A stretch of 64,000 nucleotides of DNA from positions 1 through 64,000 of the forward strand of contig PUQB01000575.1 of the NCBI GenBank assembly GCA_003024785.1, read 5' to 3'. Each line of letters opens with the position of its first letter. Positions within the stretch are counted from its first letter, which is position 1. This stretch comes from Selaginella tamariscina. Lineage: Eukaryota; Streptophyta; Lycopodiopsida; Selaginellales; Selaginellaceae. Below are positions 15,301 through 64,000 of the stretch, piece by piece. The translations under genes and the position numbers were made by a program. A model generated the notes under the pieces. The model was not told where the DNA came from. It saw only the letters and a list, made by a program, of their open reading frames with translations, and did not search any database.

Positions 15301-16078
15301 ACCTCCAACTGTAACTCCTCACACAAGCACTGTAGCTCTGTGTGATAGCTAAGCCCTCAATCTGTATTGAGGCACAATCTTCGTGCAACTTCACTAGCTG
15401 GGTTTTCCCAACCTCTAGCTGTAACTCCTCCACACAAGCTGTAGCTCTATGTGATAGATGAGCCTTCAAATTCGTATTGAAGCACAGTCTTCGTGGGTAG
15501 GCTACACTCCTCCACTAACTTTGTTGACACAAAGTTATCGTTACTCATGCTATCCATAAGGACTTGCACTGGACGGTCACCTAGTCGTCCCTCCACCACA
15601 ATAGCATGTGTGTGGCTCCTCCCGTGCCATGTAGTTTATCTATTGAGCAAGAACAAATAGAAATTTACCTTGTGGTTTAGAGAAGTCTCCTTTATGCTCC
15701 TCTCGATGCTCCATCTCCTAAAGCTTCTTAGGCGTCTACTTGTCCTTGCTGCCATTGAAACTTTTGCCCTTGGGCTTGCTTCTCCTTGAACAATTTGCCT
15801 TTTAGTGTCCAACGTCTCCACATAGGTGGTATTATCCTTTCCTTCCACCCACTCATCTCGAACCTTGCTTGATACCAATTGTTAGGCACCACTACGTACA
15901 AACTAGAGACCACCCGACCTCCCCCGAGCTGTCTCTAATCTCCACACGCTGCTCTCCAAAAAGGCTTCCAATCTTAGTGTGCCCTTAATTCTCTTAGATT
16001 TAGGTATAGCTCTTTAGGAATATTCTAGCTTATACCTTTCTAGGGAATATTCTTTGATTCGTTATACGGGTCATAACA
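12309..16078 (-). mobile_element. Nested Y-family Ty3 element with two LTRs (unit 1)
   Basis: About 3.77 kb, minus orientation. LTRs of about 200 bp lie at 12309-12511 and 15880-16078 (TGTTAGGCAC...TAACA), flanked by a 5-bp duplication AGTAT (12304-12308, 16079-16083). The primer site reads TGGTATCAAGC on the minus strand next to the right LTR, close to the initiator-Met type. A purine tract (GGGGGAGGA) abuts the left LTR. Internally, from right to left: protease region with 37-residue repeats, reverse transcriptase ([20 protein letters not shown]), RNase H (MFTDHKTLVYLF), integrase C-terminus ([20 protein letters not shown]). The LTRs differ by only a few percent, so insertion is fairly recent. 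The coding part is shortened and broken in several places. Confidence 0.85.
14930..15500 (-). repeat. 37-residue tandem repeats in the Y protease region (unit 1)
   Basis: Five copies of a ~111-bp module at ~112-bp spacing on the minus strand, with the phrase ACVEELQLEVGK as anchor (anchor starts near 14976, 15088, 15200, 15312, 15422). The plus-strand Y copy at 11560-11760 has two modules of exactly 37 residues. Counterparts: 31200-31760 and 61380-61960. The array lies just after the protease active-site region. Confidence 0.8.
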
Positions 16079-31200: not shown

Positions 31201-32645
31201 AGAAAGTTTCCACCAGCTGGGTTTTGCCAACCTCTAGCTGTAACTCCTCCACACAAGCAATTTAGCTATGTGTGACAACTGAGCCCTCAATCTCGTTGAG
31301 GCACAGTCTTGCGCATCTCCACCAGTTGGATTTTGCCAACCTCCAGCTGTAACTCCTCCACACAAGCACTGTAGCTCTGTGTGACATCTAAGTCCTCAAT
31401 CTCGTATTGAGGCACAATCTTCATGCAGCTCCACCAGCTGGGTTTTGCCAGCCTACAGCTGTAACTCCTCCACACAAGCACTGTAGCTCTGTGTGATAGT
31501 TGAGCCCTCAATCTCATATTGATGCACAGTCTTCATGTAGCTCCACCAGCTGGGTTTTGCCAACCTCCACTGTAACTCCTCCACACAAGCACTGTAGCTC
31601 TGTGTGATAGCTGAGCCCTCAATCTGTATTGAGGCACAATCTTCGTGCAGCTTCACAGCTGGGTTTTGCCAACCTCTAGCTGTAACTCCTCCACACAAGC
31701 TGTAGCTCTATGTGATAGATGAGCCTTCAAATTCGTATTGAGCACAGTCTTCGTGGGTAGCTACACTCCTCCACTAACTTTGTTGACACAAAGTTATCGT
31801 TACTCATGCTATCCATAAGGACTTGCACTGGACGGTCACCTAGTCGTCCCTCCACCACAATAGCACATGTGTGTGGCTCCTCCCGTGCCATGTAGTTTAT
31901 CTATTGAGCAAGAACAAATAGAAATTTACCTTGTGGTTTAGAGAAGTCTCCTTTGTGCTCCTCTCGACGCTCCATCTCCTAAAGCTTCTTAGGCGTCTAC
32001 TTGTCCTTGCTGCCATTGAAACTTTTGCCCTTGGGCTTGCTTCTCCTTGAACAATTTGCCTTTTAGTGTCCAACGTCTCCACATAGGTGGTATTATCCTT
32101 TCCTTCCCACCGGTCACTCATCTCGAACCTTGCTTGATACCAATTGTTAGGCACCACTACGTACAAACTAGAGACCACCCGACCCCCCCGAGCTGTCTCT
32201 AATCTCCACACGCTGCTCTCCAAAAAGGCTTCCAATCTTAGTGTGCCCTTAATTCTCTTAGATCTAGGTATAGCTCTTTAGGAATATTCTAGCTTATACC
32301 TTTCTAGGGAATATTCTTTGATTCGTTATACGGGTCATAACAAGTATACTGTAATTTTGTACCATGTGCCGTGTGCGGTCATAATATAAGCTTCCTTTCT
32401 CTCATTATATGACTATCTCTTACTCATATTTCTGCTTTGATGTATACTATTCATTTCTCAGTACTGTGACGGGATCTGTAGTACTGCTACCTGTTATACA
32501 CCTTGCCATACTTATCCTTTCCCGACCTTCTGAAGTCTGATCTGTCTTCTATTTCTACTCTATCTTATTCCAATTGACCCTTAATACGGGTTTGTCGGTG
32601 GCGACCACTACTATGTTTAGTGCGTAGGATTTTCTATGTTCAACA
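28271..32645 (+). repeat. Solo X-family LTR split by a nested Y element (unit 2)
   Basis: LTR parts 28271-28577 and 32348-32645, same layout and flanks as unit 1. Confidence 0.8.
28578..32342 (-). mobile_element. Nested Y-family Ty3 element with two LTRs (unit 2)
   Basis: Same insertion as in unit 1 (same AGTAT flanks at 28573-28577 and 32343-32347), so it was present before the units were duplicated. LTRs at 28578-28785 and 32145-32342. An integrase zinc-finger segment ([19 protein letters not shown]) is visible near 29400-29460. Broken. Confidence 0.85.
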
Positions 32646-44550: not shown

Positions 44551-47243
44551 TGTTAGGATCGTAGTTAGACATTTAGAAGATTCCTTGTTATGTTTATTTC
44601 ATGGGCAAATATAATGGGAAAAACACCAAAAACAGTATATATTATGAAAAACCGAGAGTGGGAAGGATATATCGGAGTACGAGTCACTAACACTACCGCA
44701 ATACAATGTTTAAAGTGGAGTACGGCATACTTGGATAAGGATAAGGAGTTACAGTAACTGAATGGATAAGGCTAAGAGGTAGTTACTATAACTGCTAGTA
44801 GGGACCAAAATACGAGTATAAATAGACCAAATTAGGACTAAAAGGTATCCCAAGTATTGTTAGGCACCACTATGTACAAACTAGAGACCCTCACAAAACC
44901 ACCCGACCTCCCCCGAGCTGTCTCTAATCTCCACACGCTACTCTCCAAAAAGGCTTCCAATCTTAGTGTGCCCTTAATTCTCTTAGATCTAGGTATAGCT
45001 CTTTAGGAATTTCTAGCTTATACCTTTCTAGGGAATATTTTTTGATTCGTTATACGGGTTGTAACAATCCCCCCCCATTAGCAAGTCCTTGTCCTCAAGT
45101 GCAGTATAACTTACTCAACTGGTCCTGTATCATTAGCCTCGTACATCCACAAAGAATCTACCCAGGACTTGTTCCTTGTGAGTATTCTCTTTAACTGGCT
45201 AACATGAAACACTGGGTGCACCCTCACTCCTTCTGGCAGTCGTAGTCGATATGCCACCTTATCGATACGCTCTAGAATATCATAAGGACCTGAGTACCTA
45301 GGAGACAACTTATCATTGTGTCCCTTCCGTAAGGCCACAACAGTGTTCCGCCTTACATGTGTGGCAAATACCACTCGGAGATATACATAGTCTCCCACTT
45401 GGAACTCTTGGAAGCTTCTGTGCTCATTAGCAAACTTAATAGCTCGGCTTTGAGCTACTTGTAAGTTCTTCTTGCACAAACTCTGAATGTTTCTAAGCTC
45501 AACACTCAAATCTTTAGCTTCCTCATCCATGTTGCCTTGAGCTTTCTTACTTGCTAAACCCAGCTCAAAAGCTGTCTTGGAATGCCGTCCAAACATAGCA
45601 TAATATGGACTCATTCCAATGCCACTGTGTCCTTGGCAAATGGGTGACAAAGTCCATAGAGATACTGCCCCATCGCCTGTCTGGAATAGGCAATGGCCCA
45701 CTTGGTTTTTCCCTGGGCACCTTTACTTGCTGACACTTGTCACAAGTCCTGCAGTACTCTATGATATTACTTTCATATTCCTCCAATAGAACCTTCTCTT
45801 GATCAACTCATATGTTTTCCTCCCCCTAAAATGACAGCCTCCGGGTGATCATGATGGAAATATAGTACCTGGTTGATCAAATGGTCCACATAAGGAAGAT
45901 ACACACGGCCATTGTAGTACAAAACTCCATCCTAAAATGAGAATGGTGGCTCTAGCTGTCCTTTGAGCTCCTGCACCTCAGTGTCTTGTGCTTGAGCATG
46001 TTGAACTACTGGCTAAACTCACTGACCGTCCTTGTTAATGCATTACATAAGCGTGTTTGGAATTCTCTAACCACTGTGGCTCTCCTAACGCGTGACAAAG
46101 CATCTACCACCACGTTAGCCTTTCCCATGCAATGCTCAATAGGAAATTTGCCAAACTCCATGAGCTTAACCATCCAGCGAGCTTGCTGAGAGTTTAACTC
46201 TTTCTGTTTGAACAGATACACCAAAGTCTTGTGATCTGTAAACACTTTGAAACTTGCACCATAAAGATAGTGCCTCCAAACTCATAATGCATTAACAATA
46301 GCCAGTAGTTCTTGCTCATACGTTGAGTATTGTTGCTCTGCAGGATTCAAGTACGGCTCTTATAAGCAATAGGCCTTCCCTCTTGCATAAGTACAACTCC
46401 AATGGCCACTCCACTTGCATCACACGATACCTCATAAGGCTTAGAGGGATCTGCAATACATAAAACTAGTGCACGTACCAAAGCTTGTTTCAAAGCTTGG
46501 AAACTGCTCTTCTCTGAAGCACTTCATGCAAAGGGAACGTCCTTCCTCAGCAACCTAGTTAACGAAGAAGCTTTCTTGGCATAATCCTTGACATACCGCC
46601 GGTAATAACCAGCCATGCCCAAGAAACTCTGTAACTTTTGCATTGCTAGGAACTGGCCATTGCTCCACCACTGCCACCTTCTGTGGATGGTCTTCACTCC
46701 ACTTGGCGTCACAATGTGACCCAAATACTCCACTTTGCACTGAGCAAATACACATTTGCTCTTCTTTGCATAGAGCTTGTTCTCCCTCAACAACTGAAGA
46801 ACTCTTCGCAAATGCTGCACATGCTCCTTCATATTCTTACTGTAAATAAGAATATCGTTGAGGAAGATCTCCACAAAGTCGTGCAAGTAGTCACCAAACA
46901 CCTTAGTGTCAACCGAGTGAATGTGACGGCATTTGTTAAGCCGAATGGCATAATAGTGAACTCGAAATGCCCAACTATCTTGGTGAACACTCTGGCTCCA
47001 CCGTGATGATCCATGATAGTATCCACACATGGCATGGGCATCTTGTCCTTCATTGTTTGCTTGTTGAGAGCTCTGTAGTCTATGCACATCCTCATGGTGC
47101 CATCTTTCTTCCTGACAAGCAATACTTATGCACCAAATGGAGACTTACTTAGTTGTATGAAGCCATATTCCAATAGCTCCATCACTTGTTTCTTAACCTC
47201 TTGCTCCTTAGCATGGCTCAGTCGGAATGGCTTACGGTAAATG

Positions 47244-47269
47244 ATGCACGTTGTAACTAAAGTGGGCAT
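47244..47269 (+). repeat. Left terminal inverted repeat
   Basis: Starts ATGCACGTTGTAAC and ends GTGGGCAT. Its reverse complement matches 61120-61145 at 23 of 26 positions. The adjacent AATG (47240-47243) is the target duplication. Confidence 0.9.
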
Positions 47270-47778
47270 GATACGTGAAAATGGGAATATAAAATAAATT
47301 ACTAATTAATACTTAAGTTTTAATTATTAATTAATCATTTAATTAATATGTAATTAAGCCTTAAATATTAATTAATTAATTAATTAATCCTTCAATAACC
47401 TTACTTAGTAAGGAATATTCCTAAACTATCTAGAATATTCATATTATTTAAAAATAGTTTACAATAATGAAGAAATACTATCAAACATAATTACAAATGA
47501 AATCATTTCTTATCAACATGTTAATTTTTTATAAATACTTTCTTCCTAACCATACAGAGAAATCTCCTCATTTTGTCTAAATCATCACTCTCCGGATTAA
47601 TCAAATCATTTTGGTCAATATCTTGATGTTGTTGCCACCACTAACACTCTCACGAATGCAATTGGGAGTTGCCATCCTTGTTAATACATAAGATGTAATA
47701 AGACCAGGTCTGCATAAAGGCTCATCTAAAAATGACGTTCCTTAAGAATAATATTATAAAGCGCCCGGTTGCTATCCT
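47270..47778. other. AT-rich left subterminal region
   Basis: Very AT-rich with TTAATTAATTAA runs near 47360-47390. No gene is seen until the C-terminus of the FCP1-like gene. Confidence 0.6.
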
Positions 47779-48766
47779 TCATTTTATAAAATTCAAAATC
47801 ACGAGAAAGAAAAGCTTCAGGAAATGTTGATACGGTGGATACTGCTCACAAAAATTTTCGAGATTCTTCTTTCTGAGGCACGTATCCAAGTAGTTCACTA
47901 GCTCATCCATATATCGTATCAGAATATGGATCGAAAGTGATTGGATGAATACAAGCAATGTTTTGGTTGAGCATAGCCTTCTGAGGAGAGTCGTCTACTA
48001 CTAAGATATGTGCATTCTTCATTATCCTTAAGCGACTGATCTCCCCATGAGTCCCAATTATTCTTTCATTCTTGAAGAAGTATGGCTTGCTTTCCTTTCT
48101 TATATTGTGAAATTCGAGAGGTTTATAACATATTCGCTGGTCAAAAATCCAATCTTTACGAATCACCTCTTCTGCAACACTACAATGTTTCTTAAGCAAA
48201 TTCAACAGCGGTGTTAAGTTATGAATCTGCATGCATGACCAAATCCCCACAAGCGCACCCATCTCCTTAAGCTTTTGAAAGAGACGATCCAACCCTGGAC
48301 GAAAAATAATATCATATCGAAATTTACCATGACAAGGAATGAAATCTCCTTGTTTGATTTCTTTTTTCCTATCCTCGGGCCTTTGTCGATGAAGCAGAAC
48401 ACCATTGACATCCAACAACACAATATGGCCATGAGTAACATGGATAGCGTTGCCTCTTGAATACTTTGCAAATCACTTGTTTGCTCCCTTTCACATTTAT
48501 CCGTTGCACTATCTCGTTGCCTATCCCTTCATCATTTAATTGTACATCATCCTTACAAGATTCAGATATTGCATGCGCTGAAGAAATTGATTTCGGAACT
48601 GAAGCCAATAAAAATGATGATGAAAAAACTGAAGTGGCCCCCATGGTAACGATGTTTTGAGCTGCATTATTATCCATTTCCTGCATGAACTCTGTCATTC
48701 TGACATGTGGCACAAGAAATTGTCGCCAAACCCCTCTCTTACCTCATGCCAATGCTGAAAATCCAT
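47779..48766 (-). CDS. FCP1/NIF-type (HAD superfamily) phosphatase-like cargo gene
   Basis: The core open frame (47903-48421, minus) reads VLLDVNGVLLHR, then FRPGLDRLFQKLKEMG, LVGIWSC, KDWIFDQRICY and HILVVDDSPQKAMLN. This order is that of the FCP1/SCP domain, which dephosphorylates the RNA polymerase II tail in FCP1/SCP proteins. The first motif is D-V-N-G rather than D-x-D-G, a variant I associate with a plant-specific branch, so activity is uncertain. A C-terminal piece (DELVNYLDTCLRKKNLENF) follows in the next frame (47779-47905). Upstream, NMDFQHWHEVREGFGDNF starts near 48770 and a Ser-rich linker lies at 48480-48700. Frame changes separate these parts, so introns, decay or noise are possible. 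It is likely a captured host gene. Confidence 0.65.
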
Positions 48767-48967
48767 GTTCTCAATTGTTTCATTACATCTGCAAAATGAT
48801 AATTAGCTGACCTTAAAATTATCAAGGTATATTATTTACCTTGTTAATGTGTGACCCATGTTTGAACTAAAAGCTTCATTAATCCTTGAGAATTTATTTT
48901 CTGTACAAATATAAACGAAATATACAAAAATGCCTTATGTTACACTCATTTACAACTATTCGTCACT
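48767..48967. other. Short intergenic spacer between the two cargo genes
   Basis: About 200 bp, AT-rich, containing a possible splice acceptor for the FCP1-like gene (TTTGCAG-type on the minus strand near 48788) and nothing else I can support. Confidence 0.4.
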
Positions 48968-51900
48968 CTAAGAACTCATTAACAATTCTTCTTCGCTATT
49001 ACCTTCTGAGTGAGGCGAAGAAGGTCTAAGCCGCTTGTGAGATGGTTCAAGATCTTCTGTATCTTCTATTGATGTTTCCATGGGTAATGGAGTGTGCGAA
49101 TGTTCTGTACTCCTCGAGATAACTTCCGGTCTAATATCTGATTGAAGTTCGTCCTCAGACTCCGACATTGAACCAGATTCGTCTTCAGAGCTATCGCACT
49201 TATCTGGAGGGAACTTTCTCAAATACTCCTTTATGGATTCGTTGGGGTAGTCAGTTGAGAACCTATCTATCCACTTGTTCAGGTCCTCAACCATGGTCTT
49301 ATCCTTTTCAACGGCAAATACACATGTATCCGAAGGTAACACTCCTTCAAGACGGACCCCCTAGTGCAGTAGTCAAAAACCCACGCATCACTGTGAGGAC
49401 CCCTGATCAAGTTGACGATGCTCCGTGCCGCTTGACTTGTGATGTTTGGATAACGTACATTGCCGAATACGTCACTCTCACCTATCGGTGTATCGGATGG
49501 AGGTTCAGGGCCGTTGGAGTGCAAACAGATGCCTGGCCAGTCATTTGGAAGTTTGAAATGTTTGGCGCATTCCTAACAACCAAGTGAACAACCGAATCAA
49601 TGCACTTCGGATCAGCATCATTCATATAAAATCCTGTCCAACGATGTTTATTCCTCTTGGCAAAGGAAGGCAAAGGTATCGGTGACATGAGCAAGAATCA
49701 AGAAATAAATACCTGAAAAAGTAGATATCAGTCAAGAGTGCAAGTATGAATTCAATAATAAATACCTTCTTTGTATATGCTTGCACGGCTAAGTTTCTCC
49801 ACCAAATCCTCTAGTGTCCTGTCTGTCGAAGGATTTTTTGACACCCGCCGATCCATCACGAACAATTGAAACGGTTTCCTACAAGCAGTGATGGTACCCC
49901 ATAAAGTCTCCGAATCCAACGTAGGGCTTGTCGTGATTCGTAGCATCCTCCTTTATAAGGTTCAACTCGGTTCTCCGCTGCTGAAGGACTGCCATAAGAG
50001 AAGGCGTCATCGCAATGTTCTCCTTTTTGGCGTTGGCGTGCAATAGATTCTTGCCCAGATCTTCCGATTGATTCACCCATTCGACAAGCATATCATCGTT
50101 TTGTCACATGCAAATATTTGCTGACCTCTTCGTATGTTGAAGCCGAAATCCAACCCAGTTTGTGGCAGTGTATTCCCAACCACTCCTTGAAGTGCCTGAC
50201 CGTCTTCAACTCCATTGCCTTGAGATGAAAAGGAGAGGTGGGGCTGCTGTTGTTAATGTAATTTGCCATCAATCACCAAATCAGCCAAGACTTCCATCTC
50301 CTCCATCGTTGTTCCATTTAAAGGCTTCAACCATGTGAGCTTGAAATCGTTGTCTACATCCTTTATAGATTGAACAGACTTAGCCTTCGGCGTCTTACTG
50401 GGTTTCTTTGCAGACTTCTCTGAGGGCTCCACTTCACTTGTCTGCTTCTTCTTCAGTGTTCCTTTTGCAAAGGATTCCATAATCCCCAACCATTTGGCAA
50501 AGATCCTATCCTCGGGACAAGAAATCAACATCATCAAAAAGGATGTTTCCTTCCCGCCCACCTGGGCAAAATCAACTGCTACAATTTCTTCAACTCTCTG
50601 AGAAAAAAGACAGATTAATATACCGGCGAGATAAATCCCCCAAACAATTTGCTTACCCGGTAGTCCGCAGATTGTGTATTCCCTGCGTAGCTCTTTGTGG
50701 TCGCTGAAGAGATTCCCACACGGCTCGCGTGTGTTTGAACTTCTCCCATATTTTGCTGTTGTAGTGGTTGGTGTCTGCAGCGTCCCATTCCGCCGATAAC
50801 TTATGGTACTGCTCGATTGTGAGATTCGGCTTCGCTAAAAACGCCGATCTTTTTGTCAGCTTCTCACGGGTATGCTCGGAAAGTTTTGTTGCCATCGTTC
50901 CTTTGTTGTGTTCGTCGAGAAGTCGTTGGGCTGCCGTTATTGTGTGCTGGCCACTAATGATGTAGTACTTGATGATTTTCTATTCTCCGTCTGAACCTTC
51001 CTCATTTGTTCCGGTGTTGTGATCCACACTTTGTCAGCGCCTTTGTTTTCTCGTAGTATGCGCACAAAACAGCATTATGTGGAACGGTGTAAGAATTGTC
51101 GTCCTTCATCTTCTCCATGAGCTCAGCTACACGTTCCTGATTGAGTGGCCTGTAATTGAAGTTTGGGTTGACGCTGCAATACTTAACCCTACACTGTAAA
51201 TCCTATCATCCAACATCATTTCCTTGTGGCTTATTGCAGCATGGGACGCCACAGGTGCAGCTGACAAAACGACTAATGATTTTCTTCTACGATCCGAATC
51301 AACATGTGTGATCCCCGATTGATGCTGTTCTAATGTTCTCGGCACACTCTTCCAGCTCCCGAAATTTGCTAAGCAAATTGAACGTGATCTGTAAAGAACC
51401 TGAGACCAAGCCACCCTCTAATCTCCTTATGATGTCGCTGTGTTCTTCTTCAATGTGAAGAGGGAAGATTGCTCCACTTGTGATTTTCTGTATTGTGAAG
51501 CAATCTCTCCTGACAATACACCTACTCGATGAGTCTGAAGATCTTCGAAGTAGACATCCAGTGGATCCCCTCCATAGATGGGCTTTCGTTGAGTTGAAGA
51601 AGAACTCCAAGGTCAACATCATTAGTGAACACGTGAACGTCATTATCCACAAGTCGACAAAACCACCCGAAATTAATGTTGTAACTGGACCTCTGGATCC
51701 GAGAACGTGACATTGGATGGAACAAGGCATATGTGTCGAGCATCGTCAATCTGGGTTCAGCATGCTTTCGGATGCTTGACTAGCACACCCACTTTCCATT
51801 GTTTTGCTTGTCCATGCGATGTGACAGAGGTTAGTTTGACAGCAACCATGGTTGTTCCAATGCGCTTCCCGTTTAGTTTGAAATATGGCCAAGTTGATTC

Positions 51901-52049
51901 CAGAATCCCCCTGCCCATCTCTTCTCCTGCTCTCGTCTTTAATGTCACCTCAATTCCACATCTGAATACAAAAATGATTAGTTCAAGCACATATCCGAGT
52001 ATAACAGATTTTATTTTAATTCTTACCCAGAATTTGACGACGACTCCAT
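48968..52049 (-). CDS. ParB/Srx-like domain + beta-class DNA methyltransferase-like cargo gene
   Basis: Multi-exon minus-strand gene. The first exon encodes MESSSNSG (ATG at 52049, donor GTAAGA at 52026) and joins in phase to CGIEVTLKTRAGEEMGRG (51757-51961). A ParB/sulfiredoxin-like segment follows at about 50915-51195: YRPLNQERVAELMEKM, then VWITTPEQM, then YYIISGQHTITAAQRLLDE, the G-x2-R-type box of ParB written SGQH. A helical region (50653-50895) and a Lys-rich linker (50253-50561) come next. The C-terminal part resembles a beta-class N4/N6 DNA methyltransferase: VFDYCTRGSVLKE (like the F-x-G-x-G SAM motif) followed by VFAVEKDKTMVEDLNKW (49260-49430). The position expected for the D-P-P-Y/W motif reads MDRRV (near 49838). 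An acidic tail ends at 48968. Several frame changes separate the blocks; decay or noise may explain them. Confidence 0.6.
52027..52049 (-). other. First coding exon and start of the methyltransferase-like gene
   Basis: ATG followed by seven codons (ESSSNSG) and a strong GTAAGA donor. The acceptor at 51962 (TATTCAG) restores the frame. This chooses 52049 as the start and places the promoter in the 52050-52390 interval next to palindrome array A. Confidence 0.55.
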
Positions 52050-52190
52050 ACTAATGACTCGATCTCCTTGTTTAATTAAATCGTCCTTCTGCAAAATAAT
52101 ACACTATGAATACAAATCATATAAAAACGCACACACACTTGTATAAACCCGAATATACAAAAATAATACACAGAGAGAAGTGACGGAATT

Positions 52191-52277
52191 AACTGTCCAA
52201 AGCTCACATTTGTGCTAGTGCAAAAGAAAGATAACATTTCGTTTTAGAACCACCACAAATGTGAGCTCTGGACAGTT
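52191..52277. repeat. 24-bp inverted repeat with 39-bp loop
   Basis: Arms 52191-52214 and 52254-52277 (AACTGTCC...TTTGTG and its complement) match at 23 of 24 positions. It lies about 140 bp upstream of the methyltransferase-like start. It could be a small foldback element, a hairpin RNA source or a regulatory site. Confidence 0.85.
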
Positions 52278-52388
52278 TTACATAGTTTAGCTTTTACTCG
52301 AAATATTATGATAAGATGATAAAAGTAAATAAAATGAGATATGCAACTTATATATACTAATACACATATATATTCACATGGAAGGTGC

Positions 52389-53347
52389 GGCGGGATTAAT
52401 CTCGCCACCCCTTCAATGCCTCCTGAAAGAGTGGGCGGGATTAATCTCGCCACCTTTCTGGAGGCCTTGAACGGGAGTGCGGAATTAATCTTGCCACCCT
52501 TCTCGGTCTCAGAGAGAACTGGCAGGATTTATTTGGCACACCCCTTCAGTGACTCCAGAAAGGAGGCGGGATTAATCTCGCCCACCATGTAAGGGATGGT
52601 TAAATGAATTTCGCCACCCTTCCCAGTTCCTCCATTGGTATGTTGTAAACCTTCTACGTCTCAGACAGAAACGTTTGGGATTGGTCCGACTCACCAATGG
52701 AGAAAAAAGGAAGGGTGGCGGGATTCATTCCTCCAACAGGCATTGAAGGCTCGGCGGGATTAATCCCGCCGCCCAGGGCCTTCACTCGGTCCCTATGCGG
52801 CGGGATTAATCCCGCCGGACGCCAATTCCCTACGCAAATCGGGCGGGATTAATCCCGCCGCCTAGGCCCTTCAGGCAGGCCTTTGGCGGCGGGATTAATC
52901 CCCTCAGGCCCTTCACTCGGGCCTTAGTCGGCGGGATTAATCCCGCCGACGCCAATGCCCTGTGCGGAATCGGCGGGATTAATCCCGCCGCCTAGGCCCT
53001 TCAGGCAGGCCTTTGGCGGCGGGATAAATCCGCCCGATTTCGCGTAGGGCATGCGTACGCTGGATTAATCCCGCCGGACCCAATGCCCTATGCGGAATCC
53101 GGCGGGATTAATCCCCCGCCTAGGCCCTTCAGACAGGCCAATGGCGGCGGGATAAATCCCGCCCGATTCTGCTCAGGGCATGCGTAGGCGGAGGATTAAT
53201 CCCGCCGCCAGGCTCTTCACTCGGGCCTTGTGCGGAGGAATTTAATCCGCCGCTCATTTGACTAACCGAAATAACCTGCCTGAAATGGCGGTGGGATTAA
53301 TCCCGCCGCCGAGTGGCTAATTATATAGCGGCGGGATTAATCCCGCT
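52389..53347. repeat. Palindrome array A (GGCGGGATTAATCCCGCC)
   Basis: About 18-20 copies of an 18-bp perfect palindrome or close variants. Perfect copies lie at 52753-52770, 52799-52816, 52842-52859, 52930-52947 and 52972-52989. By eye about 14 keep the exact GATTAATC core. Spacing in the regular part is 42-46 bp, about four helical turns. Linkers also repeat (for example AGGCCCTTCAGGCAGGCC), giving an ~88-bp higher-order period. Copies near 52480-52740 are degenerate. It lies upstream of the methyltransferase-like gene. Confidence 0.9.
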
Positions 53348-53865
53348 GCTACACACACACACACAGATATATATATATGTATATGTGTGTGTAGGAGAGT
53401 GCGTGTGTGTGCCAGAGATAGTCAAATCAGATAAAATTATATAGATACACACACACACACTATATATGTATATGTATATGTATATACAGGAGAGTGCATG
53501 TGGTGCGAGAGATAGATAAATAAATAAAATTATACAGATACTAGTACACATAATATATGTATATATACATAGGTATATATATATATATGTGTATATGTAT
53601 ATCGTGTGTATGCGTGTGTGAAACAAATAAAATCATACAGATAAACAACACACACACACACATATATATATACAGGAGTGTGCGTGTGTGCGCGAGAGAT
53701 ATAATTAACATCAATAAAATTATACAGATACACACACATACACATATATATAGATAAATAAATAGAATATATATATTATATATATATATAATAATATACA
53801 TATATATATTATCTTGTGTGTGTGTATATGTATACGAGTGTGCGTGTGTGCGAGAGATAGAGAAG

Positions 53866-53920
<55 letters not shown>

Positions 53921-53932
53921 ATGTGTGTGTGT

Positions 53933-53979
<47 letters not shown>

Positions 53980-54130
53980 ATACGAGTGTGCGTGTGTGTG
54001 CGAGAGATAGAGATCTAAATTATATTATTAAGATACACACACATATAAATATATATGTGAATAAAAATAAATAAATAAACTCAGAGGAGTGTGCGTGTGA
54101 GAGAGAGAGAGATCTCACCGTGTGAGAGAG
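53348..54130. repeat. Microsatellite block (CA/TG, TA, GAGA)
   Basis: Long runs of TA (for example 53868-53925) and TG (53923-53974), and repeated ~150-bp mixtures of TATATG, GTGTGTGCG and GAGAGATAGA. Open frames here are low-complexity artefacts. Confidence 0.9.
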
Positions 54131-55316
54131 AGAAGGAGATTTCGCCGTTGCCGCCGCCGCCGCCTTACAAACCCTAGGAATATACTTAAACCCTAAAAGG
54201 AATAGAAATATATATTAGCCCTAATCGAATATTCCTTTTAAGAATATACTTAAACCCTAAAAAGAATAAACTATAGATTCGCCCTAAACGAATATTCTTT
54301 CATTATATTATCAGCGTGTGCGTGTGCGTGGGTGTATCACATACACCCCAAGAATAAATATCATGCAAGGGTTTAACACGTGTGTGTCCATGAGAGTGGT
54401 TAAAGTTTCACGTGCAGCGATACATATATACACACATAGTATTATACACATAGACATACATACATATTAGTACATATTAATATTAGAGAGACAGAGTACA
54501 TCATGTATGGTGTGTATGTATGAGAGAAGAGTGACAATACATATTATGGATCATGCATGTGTGTATGTTTGAGAGAAGAGAGATAGTACATATTTACATG
54601 GATCATGCATGGTGTGTATGTATGAGAAGAGAAAGAGTGTTAACAATTAAATTCATACACAATGTCATTGCATATATTAGTACACACATATACATACACA
54701 CGTGTATACACACAACATATAACATATTACATGTGTAAATTCAATGTGTTACATAGGGTTTAGGGTTAGGATGGATCATGCATGGTGTTTATGTATAGAG
54801 GAAGATGAGTGTTATACACAGATATACATTATACATATTACATAATATTGTAACATCAGTACATATTATGGATCATGCATGGTGTATGTATGAGAGAAGA
54901 GACAGGCTACATATTATGGATCATGATCATGCATGGTGTGTATGTATGAGAAGAAGGGATTATGCATGGTGACACTGTGTATGTATGAGAAGAAGAATAG
55001 ATGTTAACAAATGAAAACCGTACACATTGCATATATTAGTACACATATATACATACACACGTGTATACACACAACATACATATATATTACATGTGTAAAT
55101 TCAATGTGTTACATACACACAGATTGAGTACATATAGATCATACATGCGTTGAACATGATTTTTTAATAAAGAAGCAACATATAATTTCTCAAGTTTGGT
55201 TTAGGGCAATGTGCATGTGTGTGCATATGTGTCTTTGTAAGTGCTTCTAATGCGTGTGCACGTGTATATATAAATTTATAATCGTGTTTATATATAATAT
55301 GTGCAAAACAAACATC
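54131..55316. repeat. Imperfect tandem repeats
   Basis: A ~67-bp pair with AATATACTTAAACCCTAAAA (54177 and 54240). About five to six copies of a module containing GGATCATGCATGG and GTATGTATGAGAGAAGAG (54500-54980). A ~120-bp block repeated at 54637-54755 and 54994-55115. No gene is seen. Confidence 0.75.
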
Positions 55317-56050
55317 GAATAATTAAGAAAATAATATTAATATACACACTATGAACATATTTTAAATTATATAATAATATATGATTTTATCTAATATATA
55401 GCCATATATAGTTTTAATAATATATATTAATTTAATATTGATAATAAGGTTTAACATTAGAATATTCTTGAAATAATAAGAAATTAATTGAGAAAATCCC
55501 ATTAATATATACAAATGTAGATCAAGTATTGAAATAATTAACTAAATTAATTATGATAATCATGTTTAATATTGAAATATTCTTGGAATAATAAGAAAAT
55601 AATAAAGAATATCACATTAATATAAAGAAGATTAATTACTCAAGTAATTAAGAAAATGAAATTAATATACACACTATGAACATATTTTAAATTATACATA
55701 ATAATACATCATTTTATCTAATATATAGTCATATATAGTTTTAATAATATATATTAATTTAATATTGATAATAAGGTTTAACATAGGAATATTCTTGAAA
55801 TAATAACAAATTAATTGAGAAAATCCTATTAATATATACAAATGTAGAATAATTACTGAGATAATTAAGAATAAGACTAATTTAATTTGATAATCAGGTT
55901 TAATATTGGAATATTCTTTCAATATTAAAAAATAATAAAGAATATCCCATTAATAGTAGGAAATGTAAATTAATTACTCGAGTAATTAAGAAAATAATAA
56001 TAATAAACAGACTATGAATATATTTTAAATGATACATAATAATATATCAA
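55317..56050. repeat. ~330-bp AT-rich tandem repeat
   Basis: Two full copies and the start of a third: ACTATGAACATATTTTAAAT recurs at about 55348 and 55674, with a variant at 56010. Very AT-rich, non-coding. Confidence 0.8.
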
Positions 56051-56673
56051 TTTATTTATTGTATTAGTGTATATATATATATAATATAAATAACAATATA
56101 TACTTGAATATTAAGAATGTAGAACAATTACAAAAATTTCGTAATATTAAACAGCTTGAAGCACTTGAATAACATTAAATGCAATTTTAAAACACTCATT
56201 GGAATTGGAGAGTATATATGTCAGACTGTCGGTTATTTGTTTCAACTCATCTTAAATTTTCTTTTCTGTTATTTCAAAAATTTCGAATTTCTGACATAAG
56301 TATTATCAGTCTGACATGTAAATTTGAAAATGCATTTAATTTCCCACTCAAATTCAGATCTGGTTCTTTCTCCGGCAAGGGTTTCATTTCTTTATTTTTC
56401 ACTCTTCAGATTTCTTTTTTCTTCTTAGTGATAGCTCAGGAGCGACATTAAATTGGGTGCGCTATTGTTTATAGGAAAGCACGGCGCCTTCATGCTGTTT
56501 ACAAGTAAGTATTATAAACAAATTTAGATATATTTATAAAGATTCACTCTCTTACATTCTCTCTTAAATTTTAGAATTTAGGGATTTAGGAATGCATTAG
56601 GATTACAATATATTCTGTTAGGGATTTATCCCGTTTAAATATACCTTTAACTTAATATTCTCGGTTAGCCGGC
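56051..56673. other. AT-rich interval before array B
   Basis: About 620 bp without a gene. A pyrimidine-rich stretch at 56250-56430 could be an untranslated leader or intron, but nothing fixes this. Confidence 0.4.
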
Positions 56674-57404
56674 GGCGGGATTAATCCGGCCATTTTTTTT
56701 GCCTCTTTGAAGAGGTGGCGGGATTAATCCCGCCACCATCTCTTTCATAGTTATGGCAGAATTAGTTCGGCAATGCTTCTCCGCCTCTTAAAAAGAGCGG
56801 AGATTAATCCCGCCGATAACTCTTCAACTGATAATGATTTACTTGAATTTATTAGAAAGAGTTGTCGGCGGATTAATCTCGCCAACCATTTTAGGAGGCA
56901 GAGAAGGGGTGGCGGGATTAATCTCGCCAATACTTCCCTGTTTTAAATATTTGTGGCAGAATTCATCCCGAATCTCTTTGAAATCATAGTTTGGAGAGAG
57001 TTGTGGGCGGGATTAATCCCGCGCTTATTCCCCGTCGTCAGAGTTGTGGGGGATTAATCCCGCCGCCTATTCTCCGTCTCAGTGTTGTGGGCGGGATTAA
57101 TCCCGCCCCTCTTCCTCGTCGGAGGAATTTGCGGGGGATTAATCCCGCCGACTCTCACAGACAAGGAAGATCCGGCGGCGGATTAATCCCGCCGGTACTT
57201 CCTCGTCGGAGGGAGTCCGGCGGATTAATCCCGCCTACTTCCTCGTCGGAGGAGCCGCGCGGGATTAATCCCGCCGCCTCTCTCCGACGAGGAAGTATCG
57301 GGCGGGATTAATCCCGACTCTCTCCGATGGGGTAGAGTCGACGGCGGGATTAATCCCGCCGACTCACTCTGAAGGGTAGAGTCTGCGGGGGATTAATCCC
57401 GCCC
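56674..57404. repeat. Palindrome array B (GGCGGGATTAATCCCGCC)
   Basis: About 15 copies with the exact GATTAATC core. Perfect 18-mers occur near 56718, 57090 and 57343. In 57006-57404 the core starts are 57011, 57052, 57095, 57137, 57181, 57223, 57263, 57306, 57348 and 57391, a spacing of 40-44 bp. Linkers in 57110-57300 carry a second hyphenated palindrome, TTCCTC-GTCG-GAGGAA. It lies upstream of the transposase gene. Confidence 0.9.
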
Positions 57405-57557
57405 ATCAGTTATATTAATAAAGCATGAGATATTATCTTTATACATAATTATGTATTATTGCACATGCATATTATTAAGCAACCGCAGTTATGATTTCTT
57501 AGAAATATTGCATAAACAGATATCATAAATAACACAATTATTTATGTGCAGGACAAT
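57405..57557 (+). promoter_or_regulatory. Leader region of the transposase gene
   Basis: AT-rich, ending in a splice-acceptor-like TTTATGTGCAG at 57541-57551 just before the first plausible ATG (57558). This suggests a 5' leader intron. A precise promoter cannot be named. Confidence 0.4.
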
Positions 57558-60371
57558 ATGTATAATACTGGAGATAAAGTATGTCTTCTTCGGAACAACG
57601 AGATAGTTGGCACTGGAACTGGAAGTTCGAGATGATAATGCATCATGTCACAATATTGCCCAAGGATCTTGTGTGTACGTATGGGTGAACACCATTTTCA
57701 AGCATGTTGAGGTTCCTGGAATGGAATTTGAGGAGGGTTCTCCTGTATTGTGGAATTTGGATGAAGTCAAGGCTGACACAGAATATACAGAGTCACAAAC
57801 AAACAGTAGCACGAGTTTTCCAGATGATGGCTTGCCTTGTGATGGATGAGGTGATTCTCTTTCTTCATGAGATTGAGGTTGGGAGAGGCATCATCACAGC
57901 TATAAATCCAATGGAAGCAGTGTCAGAAGAGAAACTAGGGTCCGACTTCGTGGGTGTAGTTGTGACAGAGGTTTCACCTAATGGCCACGTGAGGTGGCGA
58001 ACATCTGAATTAAGACGGCAAGATGGTTCAACATATTCTGGGTTGGATTTCAATAATAACAACCCGGAAGAACAACTCATATTTGAAGAGGTTCCTTGCA
58101 TTGGTCCTATTATAAGAAAAAGGCGATTCATGGGTTGCAGATCTTCCCCTGCATGTTTCAGCAAGAGGGTGAAGATGGATCCTACATCTTCCGAAAGTGT
58201 TACGAGCATTTCCACGATTGACTGCTGCAAGAAGAAGTGTTGTCAGATGGCAGACCGGAATGAAATTACCCAATGTAGACATGTCTTTCGTACGCTCACC
58301 CAAAAGCAAAGGCATGAGTTTGTATATGCTGCACTAACTGGGTGTATTGATGGAATGGCTTCGGACACAGGTTATCAGAGTACATCCATGGTATTTAATA
58401 AGGTGGCCATCTGCTTCAAAGCTTGGTACAGTATATATGGGATCCCAAAGACCACGTTCTACCGTCGGAGGGATGAGTGGTTAGATGGAGCGCGAACCTC
58501 AGTACATGGGAACACTGGCTTGGTCAAAACCCGCTCTCACATTATGGCAGCCATAGAGATACTCAAGGCTTTTGTGGAAGCAAATGCAGACAGGATGCCT
58601 CACAAATGCCGAACCACAAATGCAGGGGTCAGGGAAAATCTCAAGGTTTTGCCTTCGATCTACACTCAATTGAAGCTGTGTGAACATGTGAAAAGTGCCT
58701 CAGCTTGATGGGGCTGCAAGCAATCTGCACTGGTACCTTCAACAACATATGGAATACTCATTTTAAGGATGTGGAGATTGCAAAACACTCTAGCTTTTCA
58801 AGTGTGACACTTGTACATCATTGAAGGCTGCAGAGGCTTGTGCAAAAACCTTGGTGGAGATCACTGCCATTCAAAAGAAGATGGAGGCCCCAATGATTGC
58901 ACAACAAACTTGCCGGTCTCAGTACTATGCACACCGCATGCTTTCTGTGTCACGCCCATCAGAGTACCTGTGCTTGATCCATGACAAGATGGATCATTCA
59001 AAGACCAGCATTCCAAAGCTCGTTGCAACACCAAAGTGCCTTGGAAATGTCATGAAACTTCCGATTTCATTGATAGGTGTGCTAACACATGGACACGGTT
59101 GTGAGTCATATGGACACTTTTCACTTCCACATTGGTCTAGCGACTCCAATTTCACTATTGGGTCGTTGGCCATGTGTTTCAAAACCTTGAAGCCCACTCA
59201 CAGACAAGTCCTATCAGTGATCTCAAAGTGAAGAAACAACACCTTCAACCTTTACATAATGCTCTCATGAACACGTCTGCACTTGAGGCTACTTGGGAAT
59301 ATGAGAGGCATTGTCAGCAGCCTGCACAAAAAACAGATGGCCTTGTTGAGAGTTCAGGTTCAGTGGAGGGATCTAGCTCAAATAGTGTACATGTGTCCTC
59401 AACATCAAATAAGCTTCCTCGTCATTTGCTTTTACAGATGGATAATTGTGCAGGCGAGAACAAAAATAGGTAAATCATTTTACTTAAGGGTTTCTCAAGC
59501 TCATACTTACTTTTATTTTCTAGATATGTGCTAGCATACTTGTCAATGCTTGTTGCCAAAGGTGTGTTTGAAACAATCACGCTCAGTTTTCTTATGGTTG
59601 GTCACACTCATGAAGATATTGATGCGTTCTTCAGCAAGGTCTCCAACTCTACAAAAAGGACAAGTGCACTTACCTTACCGCATATGATGAATCTTTTTGA
59701 AAATTGCATCTCCAAAAAAAGTTGTGCTTTGCTTGTGACTGAGGTGCCAGACTTCAAAAAATTTCTCAAGGAGTATATAAAAGAGGGAGTGATTCTTTAG
59801 TTGGTCACCTTGTGCCGCTACAATTCTTTTTCTCCATACGAGATGGTATACCTATTATGCAGTACAAGTTACGGCCATCAGAGCAGGAGTGGTTACCGAA
59901 AGAGGGTTAATGCTCTTCAAAAGTGGAGAGAATGGAAAGCCACTTCTCCCAGAAGGACAACCAGACCCTATTCCATTGAGTGCCCAGCTCAAGGAACAAG
60001 AGGTTATTATTGATGGCATCAAAAAATATGTGGCATGGGTTCAAAAATCGATGCCAAAGAATTCTGATAAGGCAACTGGTTACTCAGAACTATATAAGCA
60101 TTGGTTGACTATTGGGAGACTTGTTCGAGAGTTGGAAGGGCCTACTGTCACAAGTACAGAATTGCAACACCCTTTTTGGCCTAAAACAAGGTGGCGAGAG
60201 GAGATTGAAATGACATCACTGAGCACAGACGACATAGAAGCCAGTAGTGATGTGGAAGTGCAAACCCCACACTTTGTTGGACAAAGGAACCAAAAACCTA
60301 AAGCATACTTTGATGCTGTAGGATCTTCAAAAACTAATGATGGTTCTCATTACTCCAGATGCGTCATATAA
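57558..60371 (+). CDS. DDD/E-type transposase
   Basis: The plus-strand gene starts MYNTGDKVCLLRNNEIVG. An N-terminal region contains GRGIITAINPMEAV and KLGSDFVGVVVTEV, which resembles accessory domains seen in plant transposase ORFs. Then come a Cys cluster (CCKKKCCQM), the helical GIPKTTFYRRRDEWLDGA, and CDTCTSLKAAEACAKTL. The likely acidic triad is DKMDHSKT (58981-59004), QMDNCAGENKNR (59438-59469) and VGHTHEDIDAFFSKVS (59600-59647). A 54-bp intron (59470-59523, GTAAAT...TTCTAG) splits the ENKN-R codon and restores frame. The family matches what I know as DUF7869-type proteins, which I take to be a DDE-like transposase. Frame changes near 57624, 57840, 58690, 58800 and 59800 mean the copy is probably inactive as written, unless they are sequencing errors. 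Confidence 0.75.
59470..59523 (+). other. 54-bp intron in the transposase gene
   Basis: Donor GTAAATC after AATAG and acceptor TTTTCTAG before ATATGTGC. Removal gives ENKN-R-YVLAYLSML in one frame, matching the conserved core of the family. Confidence 0.7.
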
Positions 60372-61119
60372 TCAGCCTATTTGGATGGTCAAATTATGAC
60401 ACACCTGAAGTAATCACAAAAATAGTATTGTTAAGGTTGCATGGTTCAAACCACAAAAAAGGCGACACGAGAAGGAGAGTGAAAGATATAATGGATGCCT
60501 AGAGAAAACATGGTCTCCCAATCAAAAAGACCCAGCATGTTTTATAAATGTTAAATCCATTCGATATGGTGGATGTCAAGAAGCGTTGATAAGTCACGAT
60601 TAACAAAACTGCAAGGGAATGTATGTTTTCTGAAGCTTAAAGCAATTACAAAATTATAAAATATCATATATTTAATATTCATAATTATTATAAACTCTTT
60701 AATAATAGTACCAAATTGTTTACTTAACTATATAAATTTAAAAAATGATATGGAAGATTGACTATTATTATAGGATTTTATATATATATTATTACTACTA
60801 CAAATTTTTAATTAATAATGTTATATTTAAATATTAATATTTTAATAACAACATCAATATTTATATAATGTACCTCTTATGCTCTTCCTTAATTGTTATA
60901 TTAGGCAATTATTATATAATTTAATACCTTCTACTTTTATAATGTTATTAATTTTTGTTCAATGAATGCTATAATTTATTAAAGGGTCGAATACAAAATA
61001 GAATATTCTAAAGAATATTCTGTTTTCAAACATATATTTCTAAAGAATATTCCTTTAATATTAGAAAATGCTAATTAAATAGCTAAAATTGCTAATTATT
61101 AAGAAATGGGACTATAGCC
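60372..61119. other. AT-rich right subterminal region
   Basis: Very AT-rich, no gene seen. AGAATATTC-type words recur near 61005-61050 and, in the left subterminal region, near 47405-47440, possibly subterminal repeats. Confidence 0.5.
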
Positions 61120-61145
61120 ATGCCCATTTTAGTTACAACATGTAT
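61120..61145 (-). repeat. Right terminal inverted repeat
   Basis: Plus strand starts ATGCCCATTTTAG and ends ACATGTAT. It is followed by AATG (61146-61149), after which the interrupted Y element resumes. Confidence 0.9.
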
Positions 61146-62844
61146 AATGGCTTTCGTACCCTATTCCAACTCCACACCTCTTACATGTGGTAAGCCATGA
61201 GGCAGCTCGGGGGGAAGACGTCAACAAACTCCTCGCACACTAGCTTTGTTCAAGGTAACAGTAAAAGAACTTGTTTGAAGACTCAAGGTTTGTTCCAAAC
61301 CAAGTGTCTTTCACTTCAATATACTCAAGCTTCATGTGCTTGGTGCTTCACTAATCTTAGGATCCACACGCACTAGCTTTGCAAGAAAGAAAGTTTTACC
61401 AGCTAGGTTTTGCCAACCTCTAGCTATAACTCCTTCACACAAGCAATTTAGCTATGTGTGACAACTGAGCCCTCAATCTCGTGTTGAGGCACAGTCTTTG
61501 TGCATCTCCACCAGTTGGATTTTGCTAACCTCCAGCTGTAACTCCTCCACACAAGCATTGTAGCTCTATGTGACATTTAAGTGCTCAATCTCGTATTGAG
61601 GCACAATCTTCATGCAGCTCCACTAGCTGGGTTTTGCCAGCCTACAGCTGTAACTCCTCCACACAAGCACTGTAAGCTCTGTGTGATAGTTGAGCCCTCA
61701 ATCTCGTATTAATGCACAGTCTTCATGTAGTCCACCAGCTGGGTTTTGCCACCTCCAGCTGTAACTCCTCCACACAAGCATTGTAGCTCTGTGTGATAGC
61801 TGAGCCCTCAATCTCGTATTGAGGCACAGTCTTCGTGCAGCTTCACCAGCTGGGTTGCCAACCTCTAGCTGTAACTCCTCCACACAAGCACTATAGCTCT
61901 ATATGATAGCTAAACCTTCAAATTCATATTGAGGCACAGTCTTTGTGGACAAGTTGCACTCCTCCACTAACTTTGTTGACACAAAGTATCACTACTAATG
62001 CTATCCACAAGGACTTGCACTGGACGATCACCTAGTCATCCCTCCACCACAATAGCACGTGTGTTGGCTCCTCTCGTGCCATGTAGTTTATCTATTGAGC
62101 AAGAACAAATAGAAATTACCTTGTGGTTTAGAGAAGTCTCCTTTGTGCTCCTCTCGACGCTCCATCTCCTAAAGCTTCTTAGGCGTCTACTTGTCCTTGC
62201 TGCCATTGAAACTTTTGCCCTTGGGCTTGCTTCTCCTTGAACAATTTGCCTTTTAGTGTCCAACGTCTCCACACAGGTGGTATTATCCTCTCCTTCCCAC
62301 CGGTCACTCATCTCGAACCTTGCTCCGATACCAATTGTTATGCACCATTACATAAAACTAGAGCCCTCACAAAACCACCCGATCTCCCCCGAGCTGTCTC
62401 TAATCTCCACACGCTATCTCCAAAAAGGCTCCAATCTTAGTGTGCCCTTAATTCTCTTAGATCTAGGTATAGCTCTTTAGGAATATTCTAGCTTATACCT
62501 TTCTAGGAGATATTCTTGATTCGTTATAACGGGTCATAACAAGTATACTATAATTTTGTACCATGTGTCGTGCGCAGTCATAATATAAGCTTCCTTTCTC
62601 TCACTATATGACTATCTCTTACTCATATTTCTGCTTTGATGTATACTATTCATTTCTAAGTACTGTGACGGAATCTATAGTACTGCTACCTACTATACAC
62701 CTTGCCATCCTTATCCTTTCCCGACCTTCTGAAGTCTGATCTGTCTTGTATTTCTACTCTATCTTATTCCGATTGACCCTTAATACGGGTTTGTCGGTGG
62801 CGACCACTACTATGTTTAGTGCGTAGGATTTTCTATGTTCAACA

Positions 62845-64000
62845 AAAGCCATTTATCGTAAGCCATTTTGATTGAGCCATGTTGAGAAGCAAGAGGTTAG
62901 AAATATGGCTTCATACAATTGAGCAAGTCTCCATTTCGTGCACCAATATTGCTTGTCTCAAAAAAAATGGCACCATGAGGATGTGCATAGACTGCAGAGC
63001 TCTCAACAAGTAAACAGTGAAGGACAGGATGCCCATGCCACGTGTGGATACTATCATGGATCATCTTAGTAGAGCAAGAGTGTTCACCAAGATAGATTTG
63101 CGTAGTGGGTATCATTAGATTGCTGTGAAGGAGGCAATATCTACAAAACTACTTTCAACATTAGCTTTGGGCATTTTGAGTTCATTATTATGTCATTTGG
63201 CTTAATAAATGCCCCATCCACATTCACTTGGTTGATGACTGAGGTGTTTGGTGACTACTTGCATAACTTTGTGAAGATCTTCCTCGACGATATTCTTATT
63301 TAAAGTAAGAATATGAAGGAGCATGTGGAACATTTGCAAAGAATTCTTCAGTTGCTGCGTGCAAAGAAGAGAAAATGTGCATTTGTTCAGTGTGAAGTGG
63401 AGTATTTGGGTCACATTGTGATGCCAAGTGGAGTGAAAACTGATCCACAAAAGATGGCAATGGTGGAGCAATGGCTAGTTCTTAGCAATATACAAGAGTT
63501 ATGGAGTTTCTTGGGCATGGTTAGTTATTACCAGCAATATGTCAAGGATTATGCCAAGAAAGCTTCTCCATTAACTAGGTTGTTGAGGAAGGACGTTCCC
63601 TTTGCATAGAGTGCTTCAGAGAAGAGCAGTTTCCAAGCTTTGAAACAAGTTTTGGTACGTTCACTAGTTTTATGTATTGCAGATCCCTCTAAGCCTTATG
63701 AGGTATGCGTGATGCAAGTGGAATGGCCATTGGAGTTGTACTTATACAAGAGGGAAGGCCTATTGCTTATGAGAGTCGTACTTTGAATTCTGCAAAGCAA
63801 CGGTACTCAACATATAAGCAAGAACTATTGGCTATTGTTAATGCATTATGAGTTTGGAGGCACTATCTTTATGGTGCAAGTTTCAAGGTGTTTACAGATC
63901 ACAAGCCTTTGGTGTATCTTTTCACACAAAAAGAGTTAAACTCTCGTTAGGATGGTTAAGCTCATGGAGTTTGACGAATTTCCTATTGAGCATCATGTGG
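62845..64000 (+). mobile_element. Y-family Ty3 element, reverse transcriptase and RNase H, running out of the window
   Basis: Here the reverse transcriptase is not cut at the joint. It continues through the connection region (CEVEYLGHIVMPSGVKTDPQ, YYQQYVKDYAKKASPLTRLL) into RNase H-like sequence near 63780-63960 ([13 protein letters not shown]). This is the undisturbed continuation of the element that elsewhere is joined to gag. It is more diverged from units 1 and 2 than those are from each other. Broken. Confidence 0.8.

Follow-up and report, generated by a model that had tools for sequence, protein, structure and literature searches.

The window analysed here, the whole 64,000-nucleotide stretch from Selaginella tamariscina, contains a 13,902-bp insert (47244..61145, no strand assigned) lying inside a tandem repeat unit of ~16.27 kb. 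This insert is a complete DNA-transposon insertion, since it is flanked by AATG target-site duplications, ends in inverted repeats that agree at 24 of 27 positions, and has empty counterparts in sister copies of the host repeat. The left and right duplications (47240..47243 and 61146..61149, both without strand) were checked against those empty sites, and the left terminal inverted repeat (47244..47270, plus strand) is paired with the right one (61119..61145, minus strand). When the second repeat unit was compared by blastn with the rest of the window, the match stopped at 47243 and restarted at 61142, and the empty insertion site, GGTAAATGGCTTT, is found in sister units 1 and 2, at 14688 and 30957. 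The inner 21 bp of the inverted repeat do not occur again in the window at ≤3 mismatches. Thus, the proposal of an earlier, sequence-only reading that a minus-strand gene with ParB-like and methyltransferase-like blocks sits on a transposon was borne out by the ends of the element, the AATG duplication and the empty sister sites.

The surrounding sequence has features of its own. Positions 1-47243 consist of the ~16.27-kb unit in tandem, with three largely complete copies in the first 47 kb, and the open frames of this unit read, by eye, as fragments of a Ty3-type polymerase. Between units, the aligned positions agree at 98.8-99.7%. Close to the end of the window the repeat restarts and then flips, 63167-63993 being an inverted match to 29849-30696 at 88%. 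A 112-bp unit also forms arrays of some five copies, one array in each of three large units (14944-15495, 31209-31752 and 61398-61947).

Besides the gene discussed below, the transposon encodes two recognisable proteins. The first lies on the plus strand (57578..60368, ends approximate), is interrupted by frame changes and by an intron near 59470-59523, and belongs to the DUF7869 family: Pfam PF25273 matches 59474-59797 (E=1.1e-26) and 59141-59470 (E=3e-6), with a further match at 58794-59228 (E=4e-5) that falls below the Pfam cut-off. It contains the acidic motifs MDNCAGENKN and VGHTHEDIDAFFS, and we infer that it is probably a DDE/DDD transposase. The insert is a large inverted-repeat DNA transposon with a putative transposase gene, and its 4-bp target-site duplication, AATG, is of the length expected in the Sola superfamily; it is probably a large cut-and-paste element, Sola-like in kind. 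The second protein, a cargo product encoded on the minus strand (47903..48743), is a NIF/SCP-like phosphatase (PF03031, E=2e-10 for 47903-48421), with a possible N-terminal extension at 48743-48372 recognised by eye in a different frame. The signature of these phosphatases is usually DxDxT; here this place reads DVNGVL. No RNA genes were detected by Rfam at the gathering threshold or by ARAGORN.

The ParB/methyltransferase-like gene occupies 48968..52049 on the minus strand and can be followed as a path of 956 codons through four exons (about 52049-52027, 51961-50657, 50597-49766 and 49712-48968), with 12 frame changes and one in-frame stop. Its length and its position opposite the transposase-like gene of the plus strand make it an opposite-strand accessory gene of about 1,000 amino acids. 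The four peptides singled out by the sequence-only reading, YRPLNQERVAELMEKM (51154-51107), YYIISGQHTITAAQRLLDE (50967-50911), VFDYCTRGSVLKE (49380-49342) and VFAVEKDKTMVEDLNKW (49321-49271), all lie on the minus strand where and in the order in which that reading had put them, along one gene-like path. They occupy two reading frames, and the path as a whole runs through each of the three; in its sequenced form, the gene is therefore broken.

These interruptions raise the question of whether two or more unrelated decayed genes have been read as a single one, a view that would draw on the 12 frame changes and on the second intron, where the reading phase does not fit and the exon ends are approximate. 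Against it, there is a single in-frame stop in 956 codons, a low count that is partly a matter of construction because the frames of the path were picked for their absence of stops, set beside 103 stops in 1886 codons in the remaining two frames of the same stretches. Moreover, a codon-position bias runs along the whole path (G at 0.30, 0.16 and 0.28 in positions 1, 2 and 3), the three introns (65, 59 and 53 nt) have GT..AG borders, and a fused gene of this kind has been published (PMC12477816). We consider a composite of unrelated genes very improbable, and treat the path as one gene.

Assembly error probably accounts for some of the frame damage in this single copy of the element, as we infer from the host repeat. 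The assembly looks indel-rich: in a 10.3-kb comparison, repeat units 2 and 3 show 42 gaps as against 26 substitutions. For units 1 and 2 the figures are 86 substitutions and 52 gaps, and for units 1 and 3 they are 122 substitutions and 63 gaps; gaps thus outnumber substitutions in a single pair, and unusually many gaps are seen in all three. The gaps between units 2 and 3 work out at roughly 2 indels per kb in each copy, half or so of the rate of frame changes in the gene (4.2 per kb).

The N-terminal half of the gene was compared with ParB using profiles derived from nine ParB-methyltransferase proteins of phages and plasmids (L001, L002, L005-L011; the truncated L008 was excluded from the ParB profile, and L003, L004 and L012-L016 were left out of the profiles altogether). 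As a check that leaves less room for selection, five profiles were run over all segments without a stop in the six reading frames of the window, giving 47,904 20-mers. The block resembling box II, or the P-motif, YIISGQHTITAAQRLLDEHN (50905..50964, minus strand), ranked first of all 47,904 for the phage-derived P-motif profile, though narrowly (z 5.0, the next 4.8). The other four profiles (box I, motif IV and two for motif I) chose places other than those expected, the motif I block being split by a frame change and so unscorable in one frame. The block resembling box I, or the C-motif, NPNFNYRPLNQERVAELMEKM (51107..51169, minus strand), was recognised by eye; the top match of the box I profile, at 50707, lies inside the gene span but in an off-path frame, and was given no weight.

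Profile-profile alignment of the ParB region by hhalign gave a score of 22.5, which none of 100 shuffles reached (the best scored 19.5); the alignment had 15-17 confident columns and a probability of only 4-6%. Two further local settings likewise left 0 of 100 shuffles at the score, again with a probability of 4-6%; in the global setting, 33 of 100 reached it. When the ParB profile was aligned with gaps to the whole path, 5 of 60 shuffles reached the score, and the alignment ended at the expected place. No ParB family match was obtained at E≤10 in Pfam, PHROGs or NCBIfam, either with the gene pieces or with read-through versions. The P-motif of ParB is GxxR (PMC12704722); this motif is not present in the block, which reads GQHT although its surroundings rank first in the window. 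A single-sequence AlphaFold prediction for the 108-aa open reading frame that contains the P-motif had a pLDDT of 51.5. Taken together, these results give weak support to a putative ParB identity of the N-terminal half. Of the two ParB-fold blocks that had been claimed, it is the P-motif site that stood, by its first rank in the window, with the ParB region at 0 of 100 shuffles in local alignment; the broader claim did not, there being no family match, GQHT in place of GxxR, and a box I profile that points elsewhere.

In the second half, the blocks resembling methyltransferase motifs I-II, VFDYCTRGSVLK and VLPSDTCVFAVEKD (49301..49380, minus strand), were found by eye and span a frame change. 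The catalytic motif of beta-class N4/N6 DNA methyltransferases is (D/N/S)PP(Y/F/W). This motif is not present in the gene; at the position assigned by eye to motif IV (49842..49871, minus strand) the sequence reads FQLFVMDRRV, and the earlier remark that the D-P-P-Y/W site appears as D-R-R-V is correct. The profile for motif IV found its best place within the gene at rank 19 of the six-frame scan, away from DRRV. For the methyltransferase region, hhalign shuffles scored at least as high in 34, 32 and 34 of 100 cases under the three local settings, and in 14 of 100 under the global one. In whole-path alignments, 7 of 60 shuffles reached the score of the methyltransferase C-terminal profile and 26 of 60 that of the motif IV profile, both alignments falling in the wrong place. 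PF01555 or any other methyltransferase family had no match in Pfam at E≤10 with gene pieces or read-through versions, nor in NCBIfam or PHROGs. Thus the SAM-binding methyltransferase pattern that had been proposed is a motif order seen by eye, not supported by numbers, as every profile control scores as well; and the suggested Pfam comparison with ParBc and N6_N4_Mtase returned neither at E≤10. Since the motif and profile tests failed in the present copy, we do not file its protein as a member of the ParB or of a methyltransferase family.

Relatives were sought widely. Three protein searches, with residues 1-900 of the read-through gene, with exon 2 and with the 3' half, returned 4557, 2991 and 1026 candidates, none of them at E≤10, and tblastn of the gene against phage and plasmid collections gave no match at E≤10. 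PDB searches returned 0, 1 and 17 sequences, the best of which (E 0.42) is a receptor and was judged unrelated. Weak PHROGs matches (E 0.04-0.25) fell in three families of unknown function; in Pfam, matches to DUF658, PH_BUD3_C, Rhomboid_N and 2OG-FeII_Oxy_5 (E 0.03-0.07) concern unrelated families and were taken as chance. In the searches for related proteins, in those of phages and plasmids, and in PHROGs and NCBIfam, the read-through translations used as queries had a few residues duplicated at the frame overlaps; the Pfam, PDB and hhalign outcomes were the same once these residues had been trimmed. IMG/VR yielded no confirmed relative with the inverted repeat, the DUF7869 gene, the P-motif open reading frame or the motif I open reading frame, nor did DUF7869 as a query against GTDB contigs, and neither collection contained the paired palindrome described below; these are viral and prokaryotic collections, where misses say little about eukaryotes. 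A degenerate ISGQHT pattern picked out five IMG/VR loci whose open reading frames, as read, are not ParB-like, and a degenerate NYRPLN pattern picked out no IMG/VR loci.

It could be argued from these results that the gene encodes an orphan accessory protein, of a DNA-binding or repressor type, with no true ParB or methyltransferase homology, and that the four peptides are chance likenesses picked by eye. No named family matches the protein, the methyltransferase profile is indistinguishable from shuffles, and the lead of the P-motif site, 5.0 against 4.8, is small. Yet this site ranks first in the window exactly at the place proposed for it, the order of the motifs fits, by eye, that of a ParB-methyltransferase, and a ParB-methyltransferase gene of similar size and the same strand opposition has been published from an algal transposon (PMC12477816). 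We consider the orphan protein somewhat unlikely, and favour a ParB-like/methyltransferase-like gene.

The DUF7869 gene and the ParB/methyltransferase-like gene are divergent, and upstream of each lies an array of 18-bp palindromes close to GGCGGGATTAATCCCGCC. Array 1 (52389..53347, no strand assigned) comprises 19 palindromes and begins at a distance of 340 bp from the start codon (ATG) of the ParB/methyltransferase-like gene, on its upstream side; array 2 (56674..57403, likewise without strand) comprises 16, and some 175-290 bp separate its end from the first DUF7869 open frames. At ≤2 mismatches GGCGGGATTAATCCCGCC occurs 25 times, and not once in any of 100 shuffles; at ≤5 mismatches there are 35 sites in the two arrays and a single extra one in the window, at 50625. 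Spacing is regular, with 26 of 33 intervals at 40-46 bp and a phasing of about 43 bp. The palindrome core holds 1.55 bits per base as against about 0.2 in the flanks, a core value that is inflated by the picking of sites at ≤5 mismatches. Since the spacers differ between the arrays, the pattern suggests that the core has been kept by selection, and the 35 palindromes are candidate binding sites of a protein of the element. Between both arrays, at 55320-56115, there are also two adjacent copies of an AT-rich block, 86% alike and spaced about 325 bp apart.

Which protein would bind these sites can be argued in more than one way. Many transposases bind short repeats inside their own element. The palindromes may accordingly be binding sites of the transposase, comparable to the subterminal repeats of other transposons, rather than of the ParB-like protein, and the general frequency of such binding makes this a reading to be taken seriously, if not the one that we prefer. 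It is opposed by the internal location of the arrays, 5.1 and 3.7 kb from the ends and adjoining the gene starts, and by the occurrence of just one further site in the window at ≤5 mismatches. Alternatively, the ParB-like protein could be the specific binder of all 35 parS-like palindromes, clustered 18-bp sites that recur at intervals of about four helical turns. In that case this eukaryotic element would possess a full apparatus for recognising itself, with a ParB-derived reader-writer controlling both genes by binding or methylation; we regard so full a system as distinctly unlikely.

Another possibility is that the protein is a ParB-methyltransferase by descent which has become a pseudo-enzyme, having lost DPPY and retained only the binding of the palindromes, and which acts as an autorepressor. 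The FQLFVMDRRV sequence at the place of motif IV and the arrays upstream of both genes are consistent with this, but with a single copy in an indel-rich assembly, loss throughout the family and local damage are indistinguishable. We hold this to be an appreciable possibility, falling short of an even chance. For the present allele, DNA binding or regulation would be expected rather than active methylation, since DPPY and GxxR are both replaced.

We consider it probable that the window holds one copy of a large transposon of the algal type, with a transposase on one strand and, on the other, an accessory gene of ~955 residues that is ParB-like in its N-terminal half and N4/N6-methyltransferase-like in its C-terminal half. 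In such an element, the accessory product, in this or an intact related form, would bind the element's own DNA, most likely at the arrays upstream of the divergent genes, and this binding would regulate the element or mark it epigenetically. Transposons are usually regarded as targets of epigenetic silencing. An element with a DNA-marking protein of its own could instead set its own epigenetic state, an idea already published for algal elements (PMC12477816). The window adds to it a concrete candidate binding site, in the form of one palindrome array upstream of each divergent gene, and these candidate sites make the self-marking idea directly testable by binding assays and long-read modification calls.

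Several known systems bear on this reading. (i) Phages often carry ParB fusions to predicted DNA methyltransferases, whereas in eukaryotes the most common form of the ParB fold is sulfiredoxin, according to PMC12704722. The nine phage and plasmid ParB-N4/N6-methyltransferase fusions from which our profiles were built resemble the present gene in having ParB first and the methyltransferase after it; they differ in being 408-510 aa long and in having GxxR and (D/S)PPY in 9 of 9 cases, both of which motifs the window gene lacks. (ii) The N4CMT of bdelloid rotifers is, as described in PMC8885841, a bacterial-type methyltransferase in a eukaryote and is tied to transposon silencing, but it has a chromodomain, and the word ParB is absent from the main text of that paper. 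(iii) Sola elements are described in PMC10741241 as having 4-bp duplications and a DDD transposase, as measuring mostly 2-9 kb, with some over 15 kb, and as being present in moss and not commonly in flowering plants.

(iv) The closest parallel is Sola1-1_Ec32 of Ectocarpus, a giant Sola1 transposon of 21.5 kb in which a 1,104-aa gene with ParB and N4/N6-methyltransferase domains lies opposite the transposase (Dinatale et al. 2025, PMC12477816). As far as the accessible text of that account goes, both are giant DNA transposons with an accessory gene of about 1,000 aa opposite the transposase, although the element studied here measures 13.9 kb against 21.5 kb. The accessible text mentions neither palindrome arrays nor a phosphatase, both of which are present here. 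The domains of Sola1-1_Ec32 were recognised by its authors, whereas here profiles do not recognise them; the likeness drawn is one of description. The same source cites similar proteins from transposons of green and red algae (Iyer et al. 2011; Petroll et al. 2025), which share the cargo idea with the present element, and proposes that such proteins bind and epigenetically mark their own transposon. The novelty implied by the sequence-only reading for a ParB-methyltransferase cargo thus falls away, the arrangement being already in print for algae together with the self-marking proposal. Because the published Ectocarpus gene has the proposed content and the same strand opposition, the ParB-methyltransferase reading of the Selaginella gene is plausible and not new in kind, and we take the accessory gene to be, most likely, a transposon cargo of the ParB-methyltransferase class already published.
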